DNA of 46,822 nt from NCBI GenBank assembly GCA_028693155.1, contig JAQUVY010000003.1:6195-53016 (forward strand), in the 5' to 3' direction. The DNA is from Eubacteriales bacterium. Lineage in GTDB: Bacteria > Bacillota > Clostridia > Christensenellales > UMGS416. Position 1 is the stretch's first letter. Each line of letters begins with the position of its first letter. The notes beneath the pieces were generated by a model. The model did not search any database, had not been told where the DNA came from, and saw only the letters and a list, made by a program, of their open reading frames with translations. Position numbers and translations under genes: made by a program. This document shows, one piece after another, positions 2,828 through 44,671 of this stretch.

Positions 2828-3175
2828 AGCCATGTTTTGAGCGCCTATGCGGCCTTTATCCAAAGGGATGACCCCCCGCGAGTGCCGCCCATGCGGCACT
2901 CTATATGGGTACATAAAGAGTTCGGTGGTTATTCTTAGCCATTGGGCTTGTGAGGAGGCAACGGGTTTCGCCGCACGTTGCCTGCCCTCGGGAACGATGC
3001 CGTGGGCGTCTTTGCAGCTTCTCCACGATGAAAGGGTCAAGGGATGAAGTCCCTTGTGGGGGTTCTTATTACTCTTTTTTCAACACCGCTCTCATATTGC
3101 CGCTGTGCGGCAATATTGCGCTTAGGTTGAGCGTGCTTCAGCCGCCAGTGCCGCTGGAGCGGCACTGGTTATTCT
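2828..3175 (+). repeat. Mosaic intergenic repeat locus R2 (modules D and C)
   Basis: Module C matches 1290-1488; module D (tacataaagagttcggtggttattcttagccattgggcttgtgag) matches the reverse complement of about 26905-26960. Confidence 0.9.
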
Positions 3176-10079: not shown

Positions 10080-10795
10080 TTGTTGCCGGCAGGGCGCTGG
10101 TCAAGGGGCAACTGCTCCTTGCAGGGGCTTTCTCTCGGTATGAACTATCCTGAGGAGGACTCGCCTCCGGCGGGGGCTAAATCCTTGTGCGGAAACAAGC
10201 CAAGTGCTGCAAGCGCGTTCGCTATTTGGGCATTCCTGCGGAATGCCCTATCGCTTCCGCGCGAGCCGTGTTTCGGCACAGCCGAAGCACTAGGATTGGG
10301 GGACGTTGTTGTATCACCGCTCCCGTGATTGTTGCCAAGGCAACAACACTGCGCTGGGCTTCCACGTGTTTTGGCAGCCAGTGCCGCTGGGGCGGCACTG
10401 GTTTGATGCGTCCCCCAAATCCCCCTAGCGACCCCCATTCCCCCTCCCATCTGGGGGTACCCCAGACCCCGGGAGCGTTTCGCCTGCGGCGAAACGCTCC
10501 CATTGCCCGCTCTCGGGAACGACGCCTTGGCCGTCCGCGCAGCCTCTCCCCGATGAAAGGGTCAAGGGATGCAATCCCTTGTGGAGGTTCTTGCTATCTC
10601 TTTTTTGCACCGCTCTTATATTGCCGCTTCACGGCAATACTGCGCTTAGTTTCAGCGTGTTTCAGCCGCCAGTGCCGCTTTAGCGGCACTGGTTAGGGAT
10701 GAAATCCCTTGCAGGTCTCTTGCTTTTTCGTTTATTCGCCGCTCCCGTGGTTTGAGCGCGTTTCAGTTGCCAGTGCCGCTAAAGCGGCACGGGTT
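10080..10795 (+). repeat. Mosaic intergenic repeat locus R3 (module A directly joined to C plus extra palindromes, no 78-bp array)
   Basis: About 380 bp match to R1 module A, about 190 bp match to module C, two extra CAGTGCCGC..GCGGCAC palindromes. Confidence 0.9.
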
Positions 10796-16033: not shown

Positions 16034-18558
<2,525 letters not shown>

Positions 18559-18574
18559 GAAGGGAGGGCCCTTC

Positions 18575-19174
18575 ATGGCCGGAATCGACAACATCATCCA
18601 GACCATTCAAGCCGACGCGCAGACCGACGCGGCGCAGGCCGTGGAGGCCGCGCAGCAGCAGGCTGCTCACATTCGCGCGCAGGCTGATGCCAAGATCGCA
18701 GCGCAGCGCGAAGAGGCGCTGGCGCAGGCTCGCACCGAGTGCGAGGAGATCGCCAAGCGCGCCCGCGTTTCCGCTGATTTGGAAAAACGAAAAGACACCC
18801 TGGCGCATAAGCAGCAGCGCATCGACACGGTGTTTGCCCGTGTGCGCGAGGAGCTGGCCGCGCTGCCCCAGGAGGAATACGACGAGATGCTCTATCGCCT
18901 GGCTGTGGAGAACGCCCAGGGGGGCGAGGTTTTAATCCCCTGCCAGGAAGGGCGCGGCCCCAGCGCGGAGCTGGTGCAGCGCGTAAACGAAGCGCTGGAG
19001 AAGGCAGGGCGCAAGCCGCTGTCGCTCTCAGGAGAGGAACGCCCCATTTTCGGCGGCTTTATCCTGGCCAGTGGCGGTGTGGAGATCAACTGCTCGCTGG
19101 ATGCGGTGCTGCGCTTTTATCGCGGGGCGCTGGCAGGCGAAGTAGCCGAAATGCTCTTTGCAAAGGAGGCCTGA
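18575..19174 (+). CDS. ntpE: V-type ATP synthase subunit E
   Basis: Alpha-helical stalk protein, position in operon, C-term GGFILASGGVEINCSLDAVL. Confidence 0.9.
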   Translation: MAGIDNIIQTIQADAQTDAAQAVEAAQQQAAHIRAQADAKIAAQREEALAQARTECEEIAKRARVSADLEKRKDTLAHKQQRIDTVFARVREELAALPQEEYDEMLYRLAVENAQGGEVLIPCQEGRGPSAELVQRVNEALEKAGRKPLSLSGEERPIFGGFILASGGVEINCSLDAVLRFYRGALAGEVAEMLFAKEA

Positions 19175-19175
19175 C

Positions 19176-20150
19176 ATGCCTCAAGGCAGTTTGAATTATG
19201 CCGTTGCCCGGGTCAAATCCCGGGAGGGCAGGCTGCTCACGGCCGACCGGCTGGAGCGCATGGTGGACGCCCCCAGCGCCGAGGAAGCGCTGCGGCTGCT
19301 GGCGGAGACGGGCTACGGCGCCCAGGCCGGCGGTGATTATGAAAAGATGGCCGAGTGGGAGCTGGCGCAGGCCGCTTCCTTTGTGGAAAGCGTCACGCCC
19401 GACGAGCGGGTCACAGACCTGTTTTTGATGCGCGGCGATTATCAGAACATGAAAGCGGCTTATAAGATGCGCGCGCTGGGTGTCAATGCGCCCGAGGCGC
19501 TCACCCAGGTGAGCAAGTTTCCCCCGCAGCTGATGGTGGATACGGTGGCGCAGCAGAACTACGTGGTGCTGCCCGAGCATATGCAGGAGGCGACGGCTCA
19601 GGCCGAGCTGCTGCTGAGCACGGGGGTCGATCCCCGCGCGCTGGATCTGCTGTTGGACGGCGCGTGGCTGCGCTGGGCGGTGCAGCAAAGCCGCAAGGCC
19701 GACGCCTTTGTGCGGGAGTATTTTACCGCCATGACCGACTTTGCCAACGCCTCTTTGGTGCTGCGCGCTCCCCATATGGGGGAGGATGCGGAGTTCGTGC
19801 GCGGGCAGCTGACCCAAGGCGGCCGGGTGCCGCGCGAGCTGTGGCTGGCGCTGTACGCCCGGGAGGCCGAGGCGCTGGGCGAGCTGGGAAAGATCGACCG
19901 CGCGCTGGCCGTTAAGTTTGACGCCGCGCAAAACGGCGGCAAGCTGTGGGAATTTGAAAAATACCGGGATGATACGCTGCTGGACATGGCCAGAGACGGC
20001 CGCAGCGAGCTGTTTACCATCCGTCCGCTGGTGGGCTATTTGCTGGCCAAGGAGGCCGAGGCTCGCGCGGTGCGCATGGTTATGACCGCCAAGAGCAACC
20101 GCATACCCCGGGATATTTTAAGAGAAAGGCTGCGTGGGCTGTATGTCTAA
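19176..20150 (+). CDS. ntpC: V-type ATP synthase subunit C
   Basis: YAVARVKSREGRLLTADRLERMV, LVGYLLAKEAEARAVRMVMTAKSNRIPRDILRERLRGLYV. Confidence 0.93.
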   Translation: MPQGSLNYAVARVKSREGRLLTADRLERMVDAPSAEEALRLLAETGYGAQAGGDYEKMAEWELAQAASFVESVTPDERVTDLFLMRGDYQNMKAAYKMRALGVNAPEALTQVSKFPPQLMVDTVAQQNYVVLPEHMQEATAQAELLLSTGVDPRALDLLLDGAWLRWAVQQSRKADAFVREYFTAMTDFANASLVLRAPHMGEDAEFVRGQLTQGGRVPRELWLALYAREAEALGELGKIDRALAVKFDAAQNGGKLWEFEKYRDDTLLDMARDGRSELFTIRPLVGYLLAKEAEARAVRMVMTAKSNRIPRDILRERLRGLYV

Positions 20151-20481
20151 GATTGCTGTGGTAGGCCCGCGGGACTCGGTGCTGGGCTTTAAAGCCCTGG
20201 GTCTGGAAGCGGTATACGCCCAAGACGCCGCCGAGGGAGAAAAGTCGGTGAACAAACTGGCGCGCGAGGGCTGCGCCATCATCTTTGTTACCGAGCGCCT
20301 GATTCAGGATATGCCCGCCGTGGTGGAGCGTTATCAAAACGAGCTGACGCCCGCCATCATCCCCATCCCCGACAACAACGGTTCCATCGGGTACGGGATG
20401 CAGGTGCTGCGCGCCAACGTGGAAAAGGCGGTGGGCTCCAACATCCTGCTGGATCAGCCGCAGGAAGAGGAACAGATCTAA
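20143..20481 (+). CDS. V-type ATP synthase subunit F
   Basis: IAVVGPRDSVLGFKALGLE, IIFVTERLIQ; overlaps C gene. Confidence 0.93.
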   Translation: MSKIAVVGPRDSVLGFKALGLEAVYAQDAAEGEKSVNKLAREGCAIIFVTERLIQDMPAVVERYQNELTPAIIPIPDNNGSIGYGMQVLRANVEKAVGSNILLDQPQEEEQI

Positions 20482-20545
20482 ATGAGACGATGCGCGCCGG
20501 CTGCAAGCGCCGGTGAATACTTCAGATAAGAGGGTGACAAGAGGG

Positions 20546-22318
20546 ATGACCGCACGAATCGTGAAAGTTTCCGGCCCGCTCATTGTGGCCGAGGGCATGG
20601 CCGACGTCAAAGTCTATGACGTGGTACGCGTGTCCAAAGAGCGCCTTATCGGCGAAGTCATCGAGCTTCGCGGCGACCGCGCTTCCATCCAGGTATACGA
20701 GGAGACCTCGGGCCTAGGCCCGGGCGAACCGGTGGAAAGCACGGGGATGCCCCTGTCGGTGGAACTGGCCCCCGGCTTGATTGAGGGGATCTTTGACGGC
20801 ATTCAGCGCCCGCTGGTGACCATCCGCGACACGGTGGGTGAGCGCATCAGCCGGGGCATTGAGCTGCCGTCGCTCAGCCGGGATAAAAAGTGGGATTTTC
20901 AGCCCCGCGCCAAGGTGGGCGACCGCGTGTCAGGCGGGGATATTTTAGGCGTGGTGCAGGAGACGGCGCTGGTGGAGCATCGGGTCATGGTGCCGCCGAA
21001 TGTGGCCGGTGAGGTGACCTGGGTGTATGCAGGAGAGGCCACCATCACCGAGCCCATCGCCCGCCTGAAGAAGGACGACGGCAGCGAGATCGAGCTGCCC
21101 ATGCTGCAGCGTTGGCCGGTGCGTATCGGCCGGCCTTACGCCACCAAGCGCGCGCCTGCCGAGCCCATGGTGACCGGTCAGCGCGTCATTGACACGTTTT
21201 TCCCGGTGGCCCAGGGCGGCGTGGCCGCAGTGCCCGGCCCCTTCGGCTCGGGCAAGACGGTGGTGCAGCATCAGCTGGCCAAATGGGCCGAAGCCGACAT
21301 CATCGTTTATGTAGGCTGCGGCGAGCGTGGCAACGAGATGACCGACGTGCTGATGGAGTTCCCCCAGCTGCGTGACCCGCGCTCGGGCGAGCCTCTGATG
21401 AAGCGCACGGTGCTCATTGCCAACACGTCGGATATGCCGGTGGCGGCGCGCGAAGCGTCCATCTATACCGGCATCACCATTGCGGAGTATTTCCGCGACA
21501 TGGGCTATCGCGTGGCCATCATGGCCGACTCCACCTCGCGCTGGGCGGAAGCACTGCGTGAGATGTCCGGCCGTCTGGAGGAAATGCCCGGTGAGGAAGG
21601 CTACCCCGCCTATTTGTCCTCCCGTCTGGCCGAGTATTACGAGCGCGCGGGCATTGTGAAGTGCCTGGGCAGCGAAGGGCGCGAGGGTGCCATCAGCGCC
21701 ATCGGCGCGGTGTCGCCTCCCGGAGGCGATATTTCCGAGCCGGTCACGCAGAACACGCTGCGCATCGTCAAGGTGTTCTGGGGGCTGTCTGCCCAGCTGG
21801 CCTACAGCCGCCACTTCCCCGCCATCGATTGGCTGCAGAGCTATTCGCTGTATACCGACCGCCTGAGCGCCTGGTATACCGAGCAGGTGGGCCCCGAGTG
21901 GAACGCCATGCGAAACGAGGCCATGGCCTTGCTGCAGCAGGAAAGCGAGCTGCAGGAGATCGTGCGTTTGGTGGGCGTGGATGCGCTGTCGCTGCGCGAC
22001 CGTCTGGTGCTGGAGACCACCCGATCCATCCGCGAGGACTATCTGCACCAAAACGCCTTTGACGAGGTGGATACCTACACGTCGCTGACCAAGCAGGAAA
22101 AAATGCTGGGACTCATTCTGGATTTCCACCATCAGGCTGACGACGCGTTGGATGCCGGCGCTTATTTCCGCGACATCACCAAGCTGCCGGTGCGCGAGAA
22201 GATCGGCCGCGCCAAGTATATCCGCGAGGAAAACCTGAGTGAATTTGACGACATCCAGCGGCAGATCCGTACCGAGATCGGCGAGCTGCTGGCAGCGGGA
22301 GGACTGAAGGATGCTTAA
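20546..22318 (+). CDS. ntpA: V-type ATP synthase catalytic subunit A
   Basis: [17 protein letters not shown] Walker [50 protein letters not shown]. Confidence 0.98.
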
Positions 22319-23696
22319 AGAATACAGAACGATTACCGAGGTCGTGGGTCCCCTGATGCTGGTAGAAAACGTTTCCAACGTAAAATATTACGAGCTGGTG
22401 GAGATTGAGCAGGCCAACGGAGAGATCCGCGCCGGGCGCGTGCTGGAGATCGACGGCGATAAGGCGCTGGTGCAGCTGTTTGAGAGCTCTCAGGGGCTGC
22501 AGGCGTCCACCGCCAAGGCGCGCTTCCTGGGTCACGGCATCGAGCTGGGCGTTTCGCCTGAGATGCTGGGGCGGGTGTTCGACGGCATGGGCGAGCCCAT
22601 CGACGGCGGCCCCGAGATCATCCCCGAAAAGAAGATGGACATCAACGGCACGCCGCTGAACCCGGCGGCTCGCGACTATCCTTCGGAATTCATCCAGACC
22701 GGTATTTCGGCCATTGACGGCCTGAACACGCTGGTGCGCGGGCAAAAGCTGCCCGTGTTCTCCGGCTCGGGTCTGCCCCATGCAGAGCTTGCCGCGCAGA
22801 TCGCCCGCCAGGCCAAGGTGCTGGGCAGCGATTCCAAGTTCGCGGTGGTGTTTGCCGCCATCGGCATCACTTACGAAGAAGCTGATTTCTTTATCAGCGA
22901 CTTTAAGCGCACCGGCGCCATCGACCGCGCGGTGCTGTTTGTGAACCTGGCCAACGACCCCGCCATCGAGCGTATCGCCACGCCGCGTATGGCGCTGACG
23001 GCCGCCGAGTATCTGGCTTATGAAAAGGGTATGCACGTGCTGGTCATCATGACCGACATCACCAACTATGCCGAGGCGCTGCGCGAAGTATCCGCCGCCC
23101 GCAAGGAAGTGCCCGGACGCCGCGGTTACCCCGGCTATCTGTACACCGACCTGGCGACCATGTACGAGCGCGCCGGCCGCGTGGTGGGCAAGGAGGGCTC
23201 GATCACCCAGATCCCCATCCTCACCATGCCCGAGGACGACAAGACCCACCCCATTCCCGATCTGACGGGCTATATTACCGAAGGGCAGATTATTTTGTCC
23301 CGCCAGCTTTATAAGAAGGGCGTTACCCCGCCCATCGACGTGCTGCCCTCGCTGTCCCGCCTTAAGGATAAGGGCATCGGCAAGGGGCGTACCCGCGAGG
23401 ATCACGCCGATACCATGAACCAGCTCTTCGCGGCCTATGCCCGCGGCAAAGAAGCCAAGGAGCTGGCCGTCATTCTGGGCGACGCGGCGCTGTCCGACGA
23501 GGACAAGCTGTACGCCAAGTTCTCCGACGAGTTTGAGAAACGGTATGTTTCCCAGGGCTATCAGACCGACCGAGGCATTGAGGACACGCTCAATTTGGGC
23601 TGGGAGCTGCTGAAGATCCTGCCCCGCACCGAGCTGCGGCGTATCCGCGATGAATATCTGGATAAGTATCTCCCCGCCGACCAGGAAGAAAAGTAA
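22311..23696 (+). CDS. ntpB: V-type ATP synthase subunit B
   Basis: [58 protein letters not shown]. Confidence 0.98.
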
Positions 23697-23708
23697 GGGG
23701 GTCCGGAC

Positions 23709-24341
23709 ATGGCAATCATGCAGGTAAACCCCACGCGCATGGAACTTTCCCGCCTGAAGAAGCGCCTGCAAACCGCTTCGCGCGGGCATAAGCTCCTCAA
23801 GGATAAGCGCGATGAAATGATGCGGCGGTTCGTGATGTTTGTGCGGGAAAATCAGGAGCTGCGCCGGTCGGTAGAGGCACAGGTGGAGGCGGCGCTGAAG
23901 GACTTTTTGATGGCGCGCTCCTCGCTGAGCGCCCAGGCTTTGGAGGAAGCGGTGCTTTACCCCTCCCGCAAGGCCGAGGTCGCCGTGGAGCGGCGCAACA
24001 TCATGTCGGTGGAGGTGCCGGGCTTTACCCTCAGCGGGGAAGAAAGCGGCGTCATCCATCCCTATGGCATTCTGGACACCTCGGGCGAGCTGGATCAGGC
24101 GCTGCTGGCGCTGAACGCCGCGCTGGAGCAAATGGTGAAGCTGGCCGAAAAAGAGAAGGCCTGCAACATGCTGGCCGACGAGATCGAAAAGACCCGCCGC
24201 CGGGTCAACGCGCTGGAATATGTCATGATCCCCCAGCTGGAGGAGACCATTTCCTACATCACCATGAAGCTGGAGGAGAACGAGCGCGCCAATTTAACGC
24301 GGCTGATGAAGGTCAAGACCATGCTGGCCGAGGGAAAATGA
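23709..24341 (+). CDS. ntpD: V-type ATP synthase subunit D
   Basis: NPTRMELSRLKKRLQTASRGHKLLKDKRDEMMRRF. Confidence 0.96.
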   Translation: MAIMQVNPTRMELSRLKKRLQTASRGHKLLKDKRDEMMRRFVMFVRENQELRRSVEAQVEAALKDFLMARSSLSAQALEEAVLYPSRKAEVAVERRNIMSVEVPGFTLSGEESGVIHPYGILDTSGELDQALLALNAALEQMVKLAEKEKACNMLADEIEKTRRRVNALEYVMIPQLEETISYITMKLEENERANLTRLMKVKTMLAEGK

Positions 24342-26030: not shown

Positions 26031-27000
26031 GGGCGAGTCCTCCTCAGGGCAATTGGTACCGAAAAGAACTTCCGCAAGGGATTGCATCCCTACCCAGGGC
26101 CGCTCCAGCGGCAATCACGGGAGCGGCGCAGGAAGAAGAATGCAAAGGCTCCCCAAGGGATGGTATCCCTTGACCTTTTCATCGTGGAGGAGCTGCTTTG
26201 ACGATCGGGGTATCGTTCCCGAGGGCAGGCGGGCTGCGGCGTACTCGTTCTTCAGCATCAGCGTCAGAAAAAACTCTTGGTTGCCCTCGCGCCTTGCCGC
26301 CGCCTCTCGGAATACCTACGGTGTTCCTGCCGGCATCAGTGTCAGAAAAAACTCTTGGTTGCCCTTGCGCCTTGCCGACGCCTTTCGGAACACCTGCGGT
26401 GTTCCTTTCGGCATCAGTGTCAACAGGAACTCTTGACTGCCTTCGCGTTTCGCCGTAGGCGAAACGCTCCCGGGGTGTCCCCAGACGGGAGGGGGAATGG
26501 GGGTCGCCAGGGGGATTTGGGGGACGCGTCAAACCAGTGCCGCCTCAGCGGCACTGGCAGTTGAAATGCCTAGAAGCCCAGCGCAGTGTTGCTGCCTTGG
26601 CAACAATCACGGGAGCGGTGATACAACAACGTCCCCCAATCCTAGTGTTTCGCCTGCGCCGAAACACGGCTCGCGCGGAAGCGGTTGGGCATTCCACAGG
26701 AATGCCCAAATAGCGGACGCGCTTGCAGCACTTGGTTTGCTTCCGCACAAGGGTTTGCCCCCGCCGGAGGCGAACATCCCTCCGGGCAGTTGATGCCAAG
26801 GGAAAACCCCGCAAGGGATGGTATCCCTTGACCCTTTCATCGTGGAGGAGCTGCGTGGGCGGCTAACGCATCACTCCCGAGGGCAGGCAGCGTGCGGCGA
26901 ACTTGTCGCTTTCTCACAAGCCCAATGGCTAAGGATAACCGCTGAACTTTTTATGTACCTGTGAAGGGGTTCAAGGGGCGCCTGCCCCTTGGGAAACTTA
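26031..27000 (-). repeat. Mosaic intergenic repeat locus R4, minus orientation (D-C-A-78bp array-C-partial A)
   Basis: Reverse complement matches R1, R2 and R3 modules in the same order. Confidence 0.9.
26250..26440 (-). repeat. 78-bp tandem repeat array, about 2.5 units, inverted relative to 931-1255
   Basis: catcag(c/t)gtca recurs at 26256, 26334, 26412 (78-bp period); hairpins GGAATACC-tac-GGTGTTCC and GGAACACC-tgc-GGTGTTCC. Confidence 0.9.
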
Positions 27001-41901: not shown

Positions 41902-41930
41902 TTGACGGGCTAAACGGAATCAAGTAAAAT
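41902..41930 (+). promoter_or_regulatory. Sigma-A-type promoter of amidase-cohesin operon
   Basis: TTGACG-17-TAAAAT. Confidence 0.75.
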
Positions 41931-41971: not shown

Positions 41972-43354
41972 ATGAAGTGCCGGATACTGGTTTGCATACT
42001 TTTAAGCGCGCTGCTGCTGGGCGGGGCGTGCTTGCCCGCGCTTGCCGACGGCGACCCCTACGCGGCGTATCCTTTCCCAGTCAACCAATCGCTGCAGGGC
42101 AAAACCGTCATCCTCGACCCGGGTCACTGCCAAGGCAGCGGTGGGGCCTATGCGGATTATGTGGAGCATGTGCATGTGCTGCGCATTGCCGAGCTGCTCA
42201 AGACTGATCTGGAAAACTGCGGTGCCACCGTGGTGATGACCCGAACCGACGCCACCAAGCAGCACAACCTTATGCGCATGTGCCTGTCCAACTCGGTGGC
42301 GCTGGGCATGGTGCGCGGCGTGAAGGAGGCCGCGGGCGCGGCCGACGACGTGGCGGAGATCGATCGCCTGCTGGCGCTGATGGCTTCCATCCGGCAGGAT
42401 GAATCGCTGGTGCCCACCTATTTCAACTCACCTTATGATTACAGCCATACGCGGGTGATCCACCCGGATCTTAAGAAAATATTTGAATACGAAAGCGACC
42501 CCGTCGTAGCGGAAAATCTGCTTTTCGTTTCCCTGCATACCAACGCCCCGGGCAGCAGCGATACGTCCATCAGCGGGTGCATCACCTATTGCCTGAACAA
42601 CAGTTGGAGCGATTCGCGCAATTATTACACCGCCTACAGCCATGTGGAGCGGTCTAAGCGGTTTGCCCGGCTGATGGGAGAGCAGGTGGCCGCGGCGGCG
42701 GATTACCGAAACCGCGGCGTCTCGGTCAACGACTTTTTCATGCTGCGGGAGCACAATATCCCCGCGGCGCTGGTGGAGGCGGGGTACCATACCAACGCCA
42801 CCGACCGGGCAAAGCTGATGGACGAGGTGTATAAAAAGCGCATTGCCAACGGCGTTGCCTACGCCATCGTGGAGTATTTCACCGGCAGCTCCGCGCCCTC
42901 GGGCGGCGAAACCCTGCCCGAAGAGACCCAGGACGACCGCGTGACCAGCAGCGTCTACCGCGTGAGCAGCCAGGGAGTTTCGGGCGTGCCGCTGGGCACG
43001 GATGCCGCCGCGCTGCTGGGAAACCTGTCCTCGCAGGATTACGAGCTGCGCCTGACAGACGCCGCGGGGCAGCCCAAGGCGCAGGGCGGCGTGGTCACCG
43101 GAGATGTGCTGTGCGCCTACGCCCAGGAGGAGCTGAAGGGTCAGTTCCCCATCGTCTTGTATGGGGATATAAACGGCGACGGGCAGATCGCGCTGCTGGA
43201 TTTGCTGATGCTGCAAAAGCATTTGCTGGGCACAGCCGCGCTCAACGGCGCATACCTGCGCGCGGCCGATGTCAACCACGACAGCCGGGCGGCGCTACTT
43301 GACCTGCTGGTCATCCAAAAATATTTGCTGGGGACCGGGACGATTACCCAATGA
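41972..43354 (+). CDS. Secreted N-acetylmuramoyl-L-alanine amidase (Amidase_3) with C-terminal type I dockerin
   Basis: Signal peptide; VILDPGHCQGSGGAY, SLHTNAPG, ALVEAGYHTN; C-term YGDINGDGQIALLDLLMLQKHLLG...AADVNHDSRAALLDLLVIQKYLLG. Confidence 0.92.
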   Translation: MKCRILVCILLSALLLGGACLPALADGDPYAAYPFPVNQSLQGKTVILDPGHCQGSGGAYADYVEHVHVLRIAELLKTDLENCGATVVMTRTDATKQHNLMRMCLSNSVALGMVRGVKEAAGAADDVAEIDRLLALMASIRQDESLVPTYFNSPYDYSHTRVIHPDLKKIFEYESDPVVAENLLFVSLHTNAPGSSDTSISGCITYCLNNSWSDSRNYYTAYSHVERSKRFARLMGEQVAAAADYRNRGVSVNDFFMLREHNIPAALVEAGYHTNATDRAKLMDEVYKKRIANGVAYAIVEYFTGSSAPSGGETLPEETQDDRVTSSVYRVSSQGVSGVPLGTDAAALLGNLSSQDYELRLTDAAGQPKAQGGVVTGDVLCAYAQEELKGQFPIVLYGDINGDGQIALLDLLMLQKHLLGTAALNGAYLRAADVNHDSRAALLDLLVIQKYLLGTGTITQ

Positions 43355-43365
43355 GGAGCATAACG

Positions 43366-44616
43366 ATGAAAAAACGGACGGGGAAGCTTTTGACCGCGGC
43401 GCTGGCGCTGGCGCTGCTGCTGGGACTGTGGGGCGCGCCGGCTTACGCCGTGGGTGTTTCCGTGTCGGGAAAGACGGTAAAGCCCGGCGACTCGGTGAGC
43501 GTGCGCGTATCCTTCAGCGGGGCGGACATTTTCGGTGTGCGCGCCAGCTTCTCTTATGATTCCTCGGTGCTGCAGTTTACCGGGGGCAGCGGTGGCGTGG
43601 CCAATGGCAACATCGTGCTGTACGGCGGGGATAAATCGGTCAACTCTTTGAGCTGCACGCTGAACTTCAAGGCCATCGCGGCGGGCAGCGGCAAGGTATC
43701 CGTGTCGTGCTCGGAGAGCTATAACCGCGACTTGGCCTCTCTGGGCGGGGGCAGCGGCGGCGCAACCGTCACCGTGGCTGTGCCTGCTGCGCCGGCCACG
43801 CCCAAACCCACCGTGCCGGTGGAAAAGCGCGAGATCCCCGTGGAGCTGGGCGGCCAAACCTGGTATCTGTGGCACAACATTCCCGATGCGCAGACAGTCG
43901 AGGGCTTTGAGCGCATACAGGGTGCCTGGAAAGGCGAATCCGTGGAGCTGCTGCGGCAGCCGCAGACGGGTGTCGTGCTGGTCTTCCTGACGGATCAGGC
44001 GGGAAAAAACGGCGCGCTGATGGTGTGCAGTGAGGACGGTACGCTGTCTGCGTATGTGCCCTTGCAGATCTCCGGGCAATATGTGATCTTAAACCCGGGA
44101 ACCGCGCAGGTGCCCGAGGGATACACACCGGCGGAGCTGACGCTGGGTGGGGTCAGCGTTGCCGCGTGGCAGGCGGCGGGCGACGACAGCGGGTATTTTC
44201 TGGTGTGGGCGACAGACGCCGCCGGGCAAAGCGGCTGGTATTGCTACGACCCGGCGCAGGGAACCCTGCAGCGCTACGCCAAGCAGGTCATTATTGTGGA
44301 GGTGACGCCCGCGCCCACGGCTGCGCCCGCGCCTACCCCCGCCCCCACCCCCACGCCCACCCCGGCGCTGGGGCAGCGCCTGGCGGGCGACGCGCAGGCC
44401 ATGACGCTGATTTTGCTGCTGTTGGCGGCGGTGGGTGTGCTGGCGGCGGCGCTGGTGATCCTGTGCGTGAAGACGGGCAGTAAGGGCAAGGATGCCCCGG
44501 CGCAGGACACCGCCAAAGAAACGGCAGTGGAGGAGACACAGGCTCCCGAGGGTGCGGACGCACCCGCCGCGCAGGAAGCGCCGGCCGCGCCCGAAGCAAA
44601 CGACGAAAAATCATAA
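43366..44616 (+). CDS. Cohesin-domain-like secreted protein with C-terminal transmembrane anchor
   Basis: Signal peptide; VSVSGKTVKPGDSVSVRVSFSGADIFGVRASFSYDSSVLQFTGG...; Pro/Thr/Ala linker; C-term TM MTLILLLLAAVGVLAAALVILCV. Confidence 0.8.
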   Translation: MKKRTGKLLTAALALALLLGLWGAPAYAVGVSVSGKTVKPGDSVSVRVSFSGADIFGVRASFSYDSSVLQFTGGSGGVANGNIVLYGGDKSVNSLSCTLNFKAIAAGSGKVSVSCSESYNRDLASLGGGSGGATVTVAVPAAPATPKPTVPVEKREIPVELGGQTWYLWHNIPDAQTVEGFERIQGAWKGESVELLRQPQTGVVLVFLTDQAGKNGALMVCSEDGTLSAYVPLQISGQYVILNPGTAQVPEGYTPAELTLGGVSVAAWQAAGDDSGYFLVWATDAAGQSGWYCYDPAQGTLQRYAKQVIIVEVTPAPTAAPAPTPAPTPTPTPALGQRLAGDAQAMTLILLLLAAVGVLAAALVILCVKTGSKGKDAPAQDTAKETAVEETQAPEGADAPAAQEAPAAPEANDEKS

Positions 44617-44671
44617 ACCGGGTGCGGGCGGCGGGAGAAACCCGCCGCACCGCGCTTTTTGGGAGGACAAT

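Follow-up and report, generated by a model that had tools for sequence, protein, structure and literature searches.

We describe a pair of adjacent genes from a gut Clostridia genome in which a secreted peptidoglycan amidase carrying a dockerin is followed by a membrane-anchored protein carrying a single cohesin, an arrangement that recurs across the Clostridia with four unrelated types of wall hydrolase. Our main reading, to which we assign a probability of roughly 70%, is that the second protein is a scaffold that holds the amidase at the outer face of the membrane by Ca2+-dependent cohesin-dockerin binding, as a dedicated pair. Nearly all work on cohesin-dockerin interactions has concerned their role in holding cellulosomes together; here, a connector of the cellulosome type has probably been reused to keep one of the cell's own wall hydrolases at the membrane.

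Results

Organization of the gene pair

All coordinates refer to the window (the whole stretch of 46,822 nt that was analyzed), and all features of the pair lie on its forward (+) strand. Gene 1 (41972..43354) encodes, as judged from sequence and Pfam, a 460-aa secreted N-acetylmuramoyl-L-alanine amidase with a C-terminal dockerin, as the initial annotation had proposed. A type I signal peptide read from the sequence (41972..42046, ending in ALA with D following) and the lack of a membrane anchor predict a soluble secreted product (signal peptides and transmembrane helices, here and in gene 2, were called from hydropathy and by eye). The Amidase_3 domain (42101..42880; Pfam E 2.7e-28) contains an insertion of ~100 aa visible in the alignment. 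It is followed by an X-like module (42944..43159; VYRVSSQGVSGVPLGTDAAALLG...TGDVL...VLYGD), which was delineated by comparison of 15 cargo C-termini and is kept in other pairs, and by a two-repeat type I dockerin (43160..43330, residues 397-453; Dockerin_1, PF00404, E 2.5e-13, 50.5 bits vs. a cut-off of 22.9). The two Ca-loop/helix repeats are nearly symmetric (LLDLLMLQKHLLG / LLDLLVIQKYLLG), and both Ca loops (DINGDGQIALLD and DVNHDSRAALLD) are intact: the D/N ligands that type I dockerins carry at loop positions 1, 3, 5 and 12 are present.

A comparison with solved structures pairs the amidase part with CwlV and LytH and the dockerin with its cellulosomal counterparts. A first profile scan of the named contigs for relatives of the amidase found none, and a second scan with a two-sequence alignment returned a sole relative, JAUNBH010000014.1, which matches the genome denoted G156 in sequence. 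The G156 orthologue is 41% identical to the gene 1 protein over nearly the full length, dockerin included, and the alignment shows H52, E65, H189 and E269 to be invariant between the two. By analogy, these residues would be the Zn ligands and the catalytic glutamate characteristic of Amidase_3 enzymes, and amidase activity is predicted.

Gene 2 (43366..44616) encodes a 416-aa scaffold with the modular layout originally proposed: a signal peptide (43366..43449, read from sequence), one cohesin domain (43450..43788), a middle domain of two degenerate beta-rich repeats of ~70-80 aa each (43813..44298, from alignment), a Pro/Thr-rich linker (44299..44385), a transmembrane helix followed by a Lys-containing stop-transfer region (44401..44475), and an acidic cytoplasmic tail of ~44 aa (44476..44613; 11 D/E vs. 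4 K/R by residue count). The middle domain is conserved in the alignment of the scaffold family, and its low-confidence AF2 model (two-row alignment; pLDDT 70) had no PDB match. We refer to this layout (signal peptide, cohesin, two-repeat beta domain, linker and transmembrane helix, downstream of a dockerin-bearing peptidoglycan hydrolase) as the P0002-type membrane cohesin scaffold family, a family defined in this analysis to which gene 2 belongs. The start of gene 2 had been placed at 43351, giving an ATGA overlap of the two genes (43351-43354); this codon is an in-frame upstream ATG and probably not the real start. The ATG at 43366 is preferred because it has the Shine-Dalgarno sequence GAGGAG (43353..43358, overlapping the gene 1 stop) 7 nt upstream and its Met is conserved without exception in an alignment of 15 homologues.

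Upstream of the pair, the sigma-70-like promoter TTGACG-17-TAAAAT (41902..41930), called purely by consensus match, is present as described with 10/12 matching positions; shuffled versions of the region contain on average 1.0 promoter-like site. Downstream, an intrinsic-terminator-like hairpin with T5 (~44618..44661) has a predicted RNA folding energy of -33.6 kcal/mol (z -4.4). The promoter-like site and this strong terminator-like hairpin flank the pair, and the two genes probably form one transcription unit for a dedicated enzyme-receptor pair.

Elsewhere in the window, a family of dispersed and tandem repeats, 80-99% identical and apparently intergenic, occupies 466-765, 10140-10439, 1283-1488, 2964-3169 and 10503-10605, with tandem units of 78 nt at 851-1235 and 26255-26410. 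An apparent V/A-type ATPase operon, with ORFs resembling subunits I, K, E, C and A by eye, lies at ~16034-24131.

Identity of the cohesin domain

The reading that survives best beside ours is that there is no mutual binding: the beta-sandwich of gene 2 would be an Ig-like domain that recognizes the wall or some partner, and the dockerin would serve another use or be vestigial. Two observations speak for it: the Pfam Cohesin match (PF00963; 26.7 bits vs. a cut-off of 24.1, E 7.3e-6) is weak and partial, with positions 2-59 of 139 aligned, and beta-sandwiches readily match one another when folds are compared. Against it, cohesins are the best matches by three independent methods. An hhalign comparison with independent strong Pfam cohesins of the same order gave a probability of 95.4% (E 1.9e-8, 106 columns). 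A profile built from ten scaffold cohesins returned 16 matches in a PDB sequence search (E 0.002-0.09), all but one of them chains of cohesin/scaffoldin or cohesin-dockerin entries (13 labelled scaffoldin/cohesin, and two being the non-dockerin chains of the cohesin-dockerin entries 5nrk/5nrm). An AF2 model of the domain together with one orthologue (two-row alignment; pLDDT 86.6, pTM 0.76) placed C. perfringens cohesins 2jh2 and 2vo8 at the top of the Foldseek list (TM ~0.7), followed by C. acetobutylicum CohA2 in the dockerin complexes 6kge/6kgf, the non-cellulosomal A. fulgidus 2xdh and type II cohesins, with complement fragments and galactosidase Ig domains, which are other beta-sandwiches, interspersed. 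The modelled fold by itself is unspecific; combined with the sequence comparisons, it makes a strong case for the predicted cohesin identity, in agreement with the original assignment.

Recurrence and co-inheritance of the pair

Initial Pfam and protein searches revealed relatives that have the pair. Profile A1, built from seven of their scaffolds, was searched in 297 genomes of the order with neighbours disregarded; profile A2, with 11 rows, was searched at class level (391 genomes) and at phylum level (349 genomes). An alignment of 11 scaffold sequences proved too divergent to serve in a pattern scan. Within the order, the scaffold layout was found in 15 genomes (eight of them non-seeds), and the same-strand gene directly upstream ends in a dockerin in 15/15. 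At class level, a dockerin gene lies directly upstream of 17 of the 18 assessable scaffolds; the exception, G595, has the scaffold and zero dockerins genome-wide. Beyond the class, one genome (G897) has a scaffold, again with the dockerin gene upstream (1/1). Altogether, the dockerin gene immediately precedes 26/27 new assessable full-length scaffolds, or 33/34 with the seeds included, and the pair is conserved in the synteny comparison across clostridia that the initial annotation had suggested. On account of a different layout, the count leaves out VPKTGD-type short cohesin-like partners of Ig-repeat dockerin proteins, the cohesin-only matches in G649 and G433 (no dockerin was found upstream) and second tandem scaffolds; the scaffolds at contig starts in G500 and G660 are outside it as well.

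Several variants of the arrangement were observed alongside. Two scaffold genes lie downstream of the SpoIID-dockerin genes of G453, G408 and G357 (within the class) and of G897 (outside it) (L211, L212, L214, L236). In G019 (L062:6527-8707), a cohesin+dockerin protein is followed by a transmembrane cohesin protein with cadherin-like domains, i.e., a chained (adaptor) scaffold. A second type, at L100, L111, L156-L158, L160 and L164, consists of short cohesin-like partners beside Ig-repeat, apparently non-enzymatic dockerin proteins; several of these partners end in VPKTGD...TM, which is LPXTG-like.

A maximum-likelihood tree of 15 scaffolds splits by cargo enzyme rather than by taxonomy, with 3 changes of cargo, the minimum, a value reached in 0/200 shuffles. 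Clade support is 100/100 for SpoIID, 96/91 for Ami3, 100/98 for GH25 and weaker (69/76) for SagB, and two members of family f11 sit in different cargo clades. Cohesin and X-dockerin distances are correlated after controlling for rpoB (partial r 0.81; 0/5000 permutations), as are those of the cohesin and the dockerin alone with rpoB removed (partial r 0.77); between families, the correlation of the cohesin is 0.19 with rpoB vs. 0.79 with the X-dockerin. This co-variation of sequences shows co-inheritance as a unit and agrees with physical binding without proving it; correlated distances would arise from gene linkage alone, too. Taken with the dockerin gene adjoining the scaffold at nearly every locus and with the sole orphan scaffold sitting in a dockerin-free genome, it argues against two non-interacting partners, which we consider an unlikely state of affairs.

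A single pair and its cargo

Within the 2.45-Mb, 94% complete genome from which the window was taken, there is exactly one dockerin and one cohesin, those of genes 1 and 2; since they adjoin, chance pairing is ruled out. The pair is in this sense as self-contained as had been claimed, and a genome scan for further dockerin proteins that might share the scaffold found none besides gene 1. Neither a multi-cohesin scaffoldin nor a set of plant-polysaccharide enzymes with dockerins was found in this genome, its sole dockerin being on the amidase.

The catalytic part could be read in 32 of the 33 dockerin proteins (that of G627 is cut by a contig end), and every one is a peptidoglycan hydrolase, with four unrelated kinds represented; this extends to the family the cargo type initially predicted for the window. 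Amidase_3 is the cargo in the window genome and G156 only, SpoIID in G011, G027, G265, G453, G408, G357 and G897, and GH25 in G061 and G081. The commonest cargo, in the other 21 genomes and mostly with SH3, is a glucosaminidase that we call SagB-type as a type name with no claim of orthology, because NCBIfam SagB scores are far under the model cut-off (e.g., 74 vs. 425 bits). One SagB-type representative matches the glucosaminidases 4pi7 (Autolysin E), 6fxo (bifunctional autolysin) and 6u0o chain B with E values of 1e-13 to 1e-14; G428 was assigned to this type by the local profile alone (E 9e-112), and the enzyme gene of G175 is split by a frameshift or an assembly error. A separate case in the window's family is G003 (L110:4194-8729), where a 1512-aa protein combines subtilase, SpoIID, SH3, Big_2 repeats and a dockerin and is followed by a transmembrane beta-sandwich protein.

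These counts bear on a further explanation, by which the pair is part of a cellulosome or 'lyticome' whose dockerin enzymes gather on cohesins and digest external polymers or other bacteria. The module types are the same, the Ruminococcus champanellensis cellulosome is reported to include dockerin-bearing wall hydrolases and to have lysozyme activity, and a 'lyticome' was proposed (PMC6403190), and some scaffold genomes are rich in dockerins (50 in G504, 29 in G475). Set against this are the one-cohesin, one-dockerin inventory of the window genome with its lack of a multi-cohesin scaffoldin, a transmembrane anchor that would place the enzyme beneath the cell's own wall, and a single dockerin per genome in 18/34 scaffold genomes; we regard the explanation as improbable, a little more so than the absence of mutual binding. 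The pair had at first been called 'mini-cellulosome-like', a description we abandon: because each scaffold has one cohesin and one client, with no carbohydrate-degrading cargo, a one-to-one tether is indicated rather than a multi-enzyme complex. Probable true cellulosome-type systems occur in the same order as the window genome, namely in the f11 genomes G045, G202, G244, G254, G275 and G294 (1.8-2.6 Mb), each with ~20 or more dockerins.

A sporulation device, in which amidase and SpoIID cargos resembling CwlD and SpoIID would act in engulfment or cortex formation, is very improbable: the best NCBIfam match of the amidase is indeed CwlD (under the cut-off), SpoIID cargos exist and the window genome has SpoIVA, but a sporulation-only role is unlikely because SpoIVA went undetected in 15/34 scaffold genomes, including the 98-100% complete assemblies G380, G405, G453, G408 and G357, and the commonest cargo is the SagB-type glucosaminidase. 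SpoIVA of the window genome (G000:C31:234-943) is itself split over two overlapping frames by a frameshift or an assembly error.

Discussion

In the tethering mechanism that we favor, the amidase would be secreted as a soluble protein and its Ca2+-binding dockerin would dock onto the single cohesin of the gene 2 product, which would be raised off the membrane on the beta-repeat domain and the Pro-rich stalk. The enzyme would be kept between membrane and wall, where it could trim nascent or uncross-linked peptidoglycan in the manner of SagB-SpdC and LytH-ActH of Staphylococcus, and the acidic tail may link the scaffold to intracellular partners. This location is proposed because the scaffold has a membrane anchor, the enzyme is soluble and the cargo consists of hydrolases only; we infer physical binding, its Ca2+ dependence, membrane-proximal action and an effect on the enzyme. 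Across the Clostridia, one scaffold would serve different hydrolases, each pair being inherited as a unit. A broader and more tentative proposal, for which we would give slightly less than even odds, is that the single membrane cohesin is a class-wide, previously undescribed adaptor of Clostridia that places interchangeable dockerin-tagged hydrolases (SagB-type, SpoIID, GH25 and Amidase_3), suggesting that one ancestral use of cohesin-dockerin modules may be wall growth, not fibre digestion.

If true, gut Clostridia would gain a modular means of localizing wall-cutting enzymes via a cargo-swapping tether, and many lone dockerin or cohesin genes in non-cellulolytic bacteria would be explained. 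The family would also offer natural, possibly orthogonal cohesin-dockerin pairs for engineering, and it allows one to test whether SagB-, LytH- and SpoIID-type enzymes generally need to be tethered at the membrane.

Comparison with known systems

Cellulosomal type I pairs (C. acetobutylicum CohA2/Doc, 6kge; C. thermocellum, 1ohz) likewise join a two-repeat C-terminal dockerin on the enzyme to a beta-sandwich cohesin on the scaffold, whereas here there is one cohesin, one enzyme (a peptidoglycan hydrolase) and a transmembrane anchor, without plant polysaccharide enzymes. Non-cellulosomal modules (Archaeoglobus fulgidus 2xdh; the C. perfringens glycosidase cohesins 2jh2 and 2vo8, to which the gene 2 cohesin fold is nearest) are similar in that few modules occur per genome. 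Such known modules belong to glycan- or host-directed enzymes or have no known function, and we know of no account of one as a tether that is dedicated to peptidoglycan hydrolases and conserved throughout a bacterial class. A search of the open-access literature returned no report of a membrane cohesin dedicated to such hydrolases, and novelty is provisional; the nearest published statement in that literature to a system of dockerin-tagged wall hydrolases is the work on R. champanellensis (PMC6403190), where the hydrolases also bear dockerins but sit on a cellulosome scaffoldin, in contrast to the private receptor proposed here.

Functional parallels are found among membrane-assisted wall hydrolases. 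In S. aureus, the membrane protein SpdC scaffolds the SagB glucosaminidase, which cuts nascent strands (PMC10581084), and a SagB-type enzyme is also the commonest cargo of our scaffold family; SpdC, however, is polytopic and CAAX-protease-like, in contrast to the single-TM cohesin and the dockerin tag of the present pairs. The window pair, an amidase with a single-TM partner, falls outside the SagB-SpdC system, and related pairs have SagB-type enzymes yet the same single-TM partner. LytH and CwlD, both Amidase_3 enzymes, require a membrane protein (ActH) and a lipoprotein (GerS), respectively (PMC8496864), partners that are unrelated to ours and contain neither cohesin nor dockerin. The pair is most likely a modular counterpart of SagB-SpdC and LytH-ActH, in which a cohesin-dockerin tether would answer the same requirement by unrelated means.
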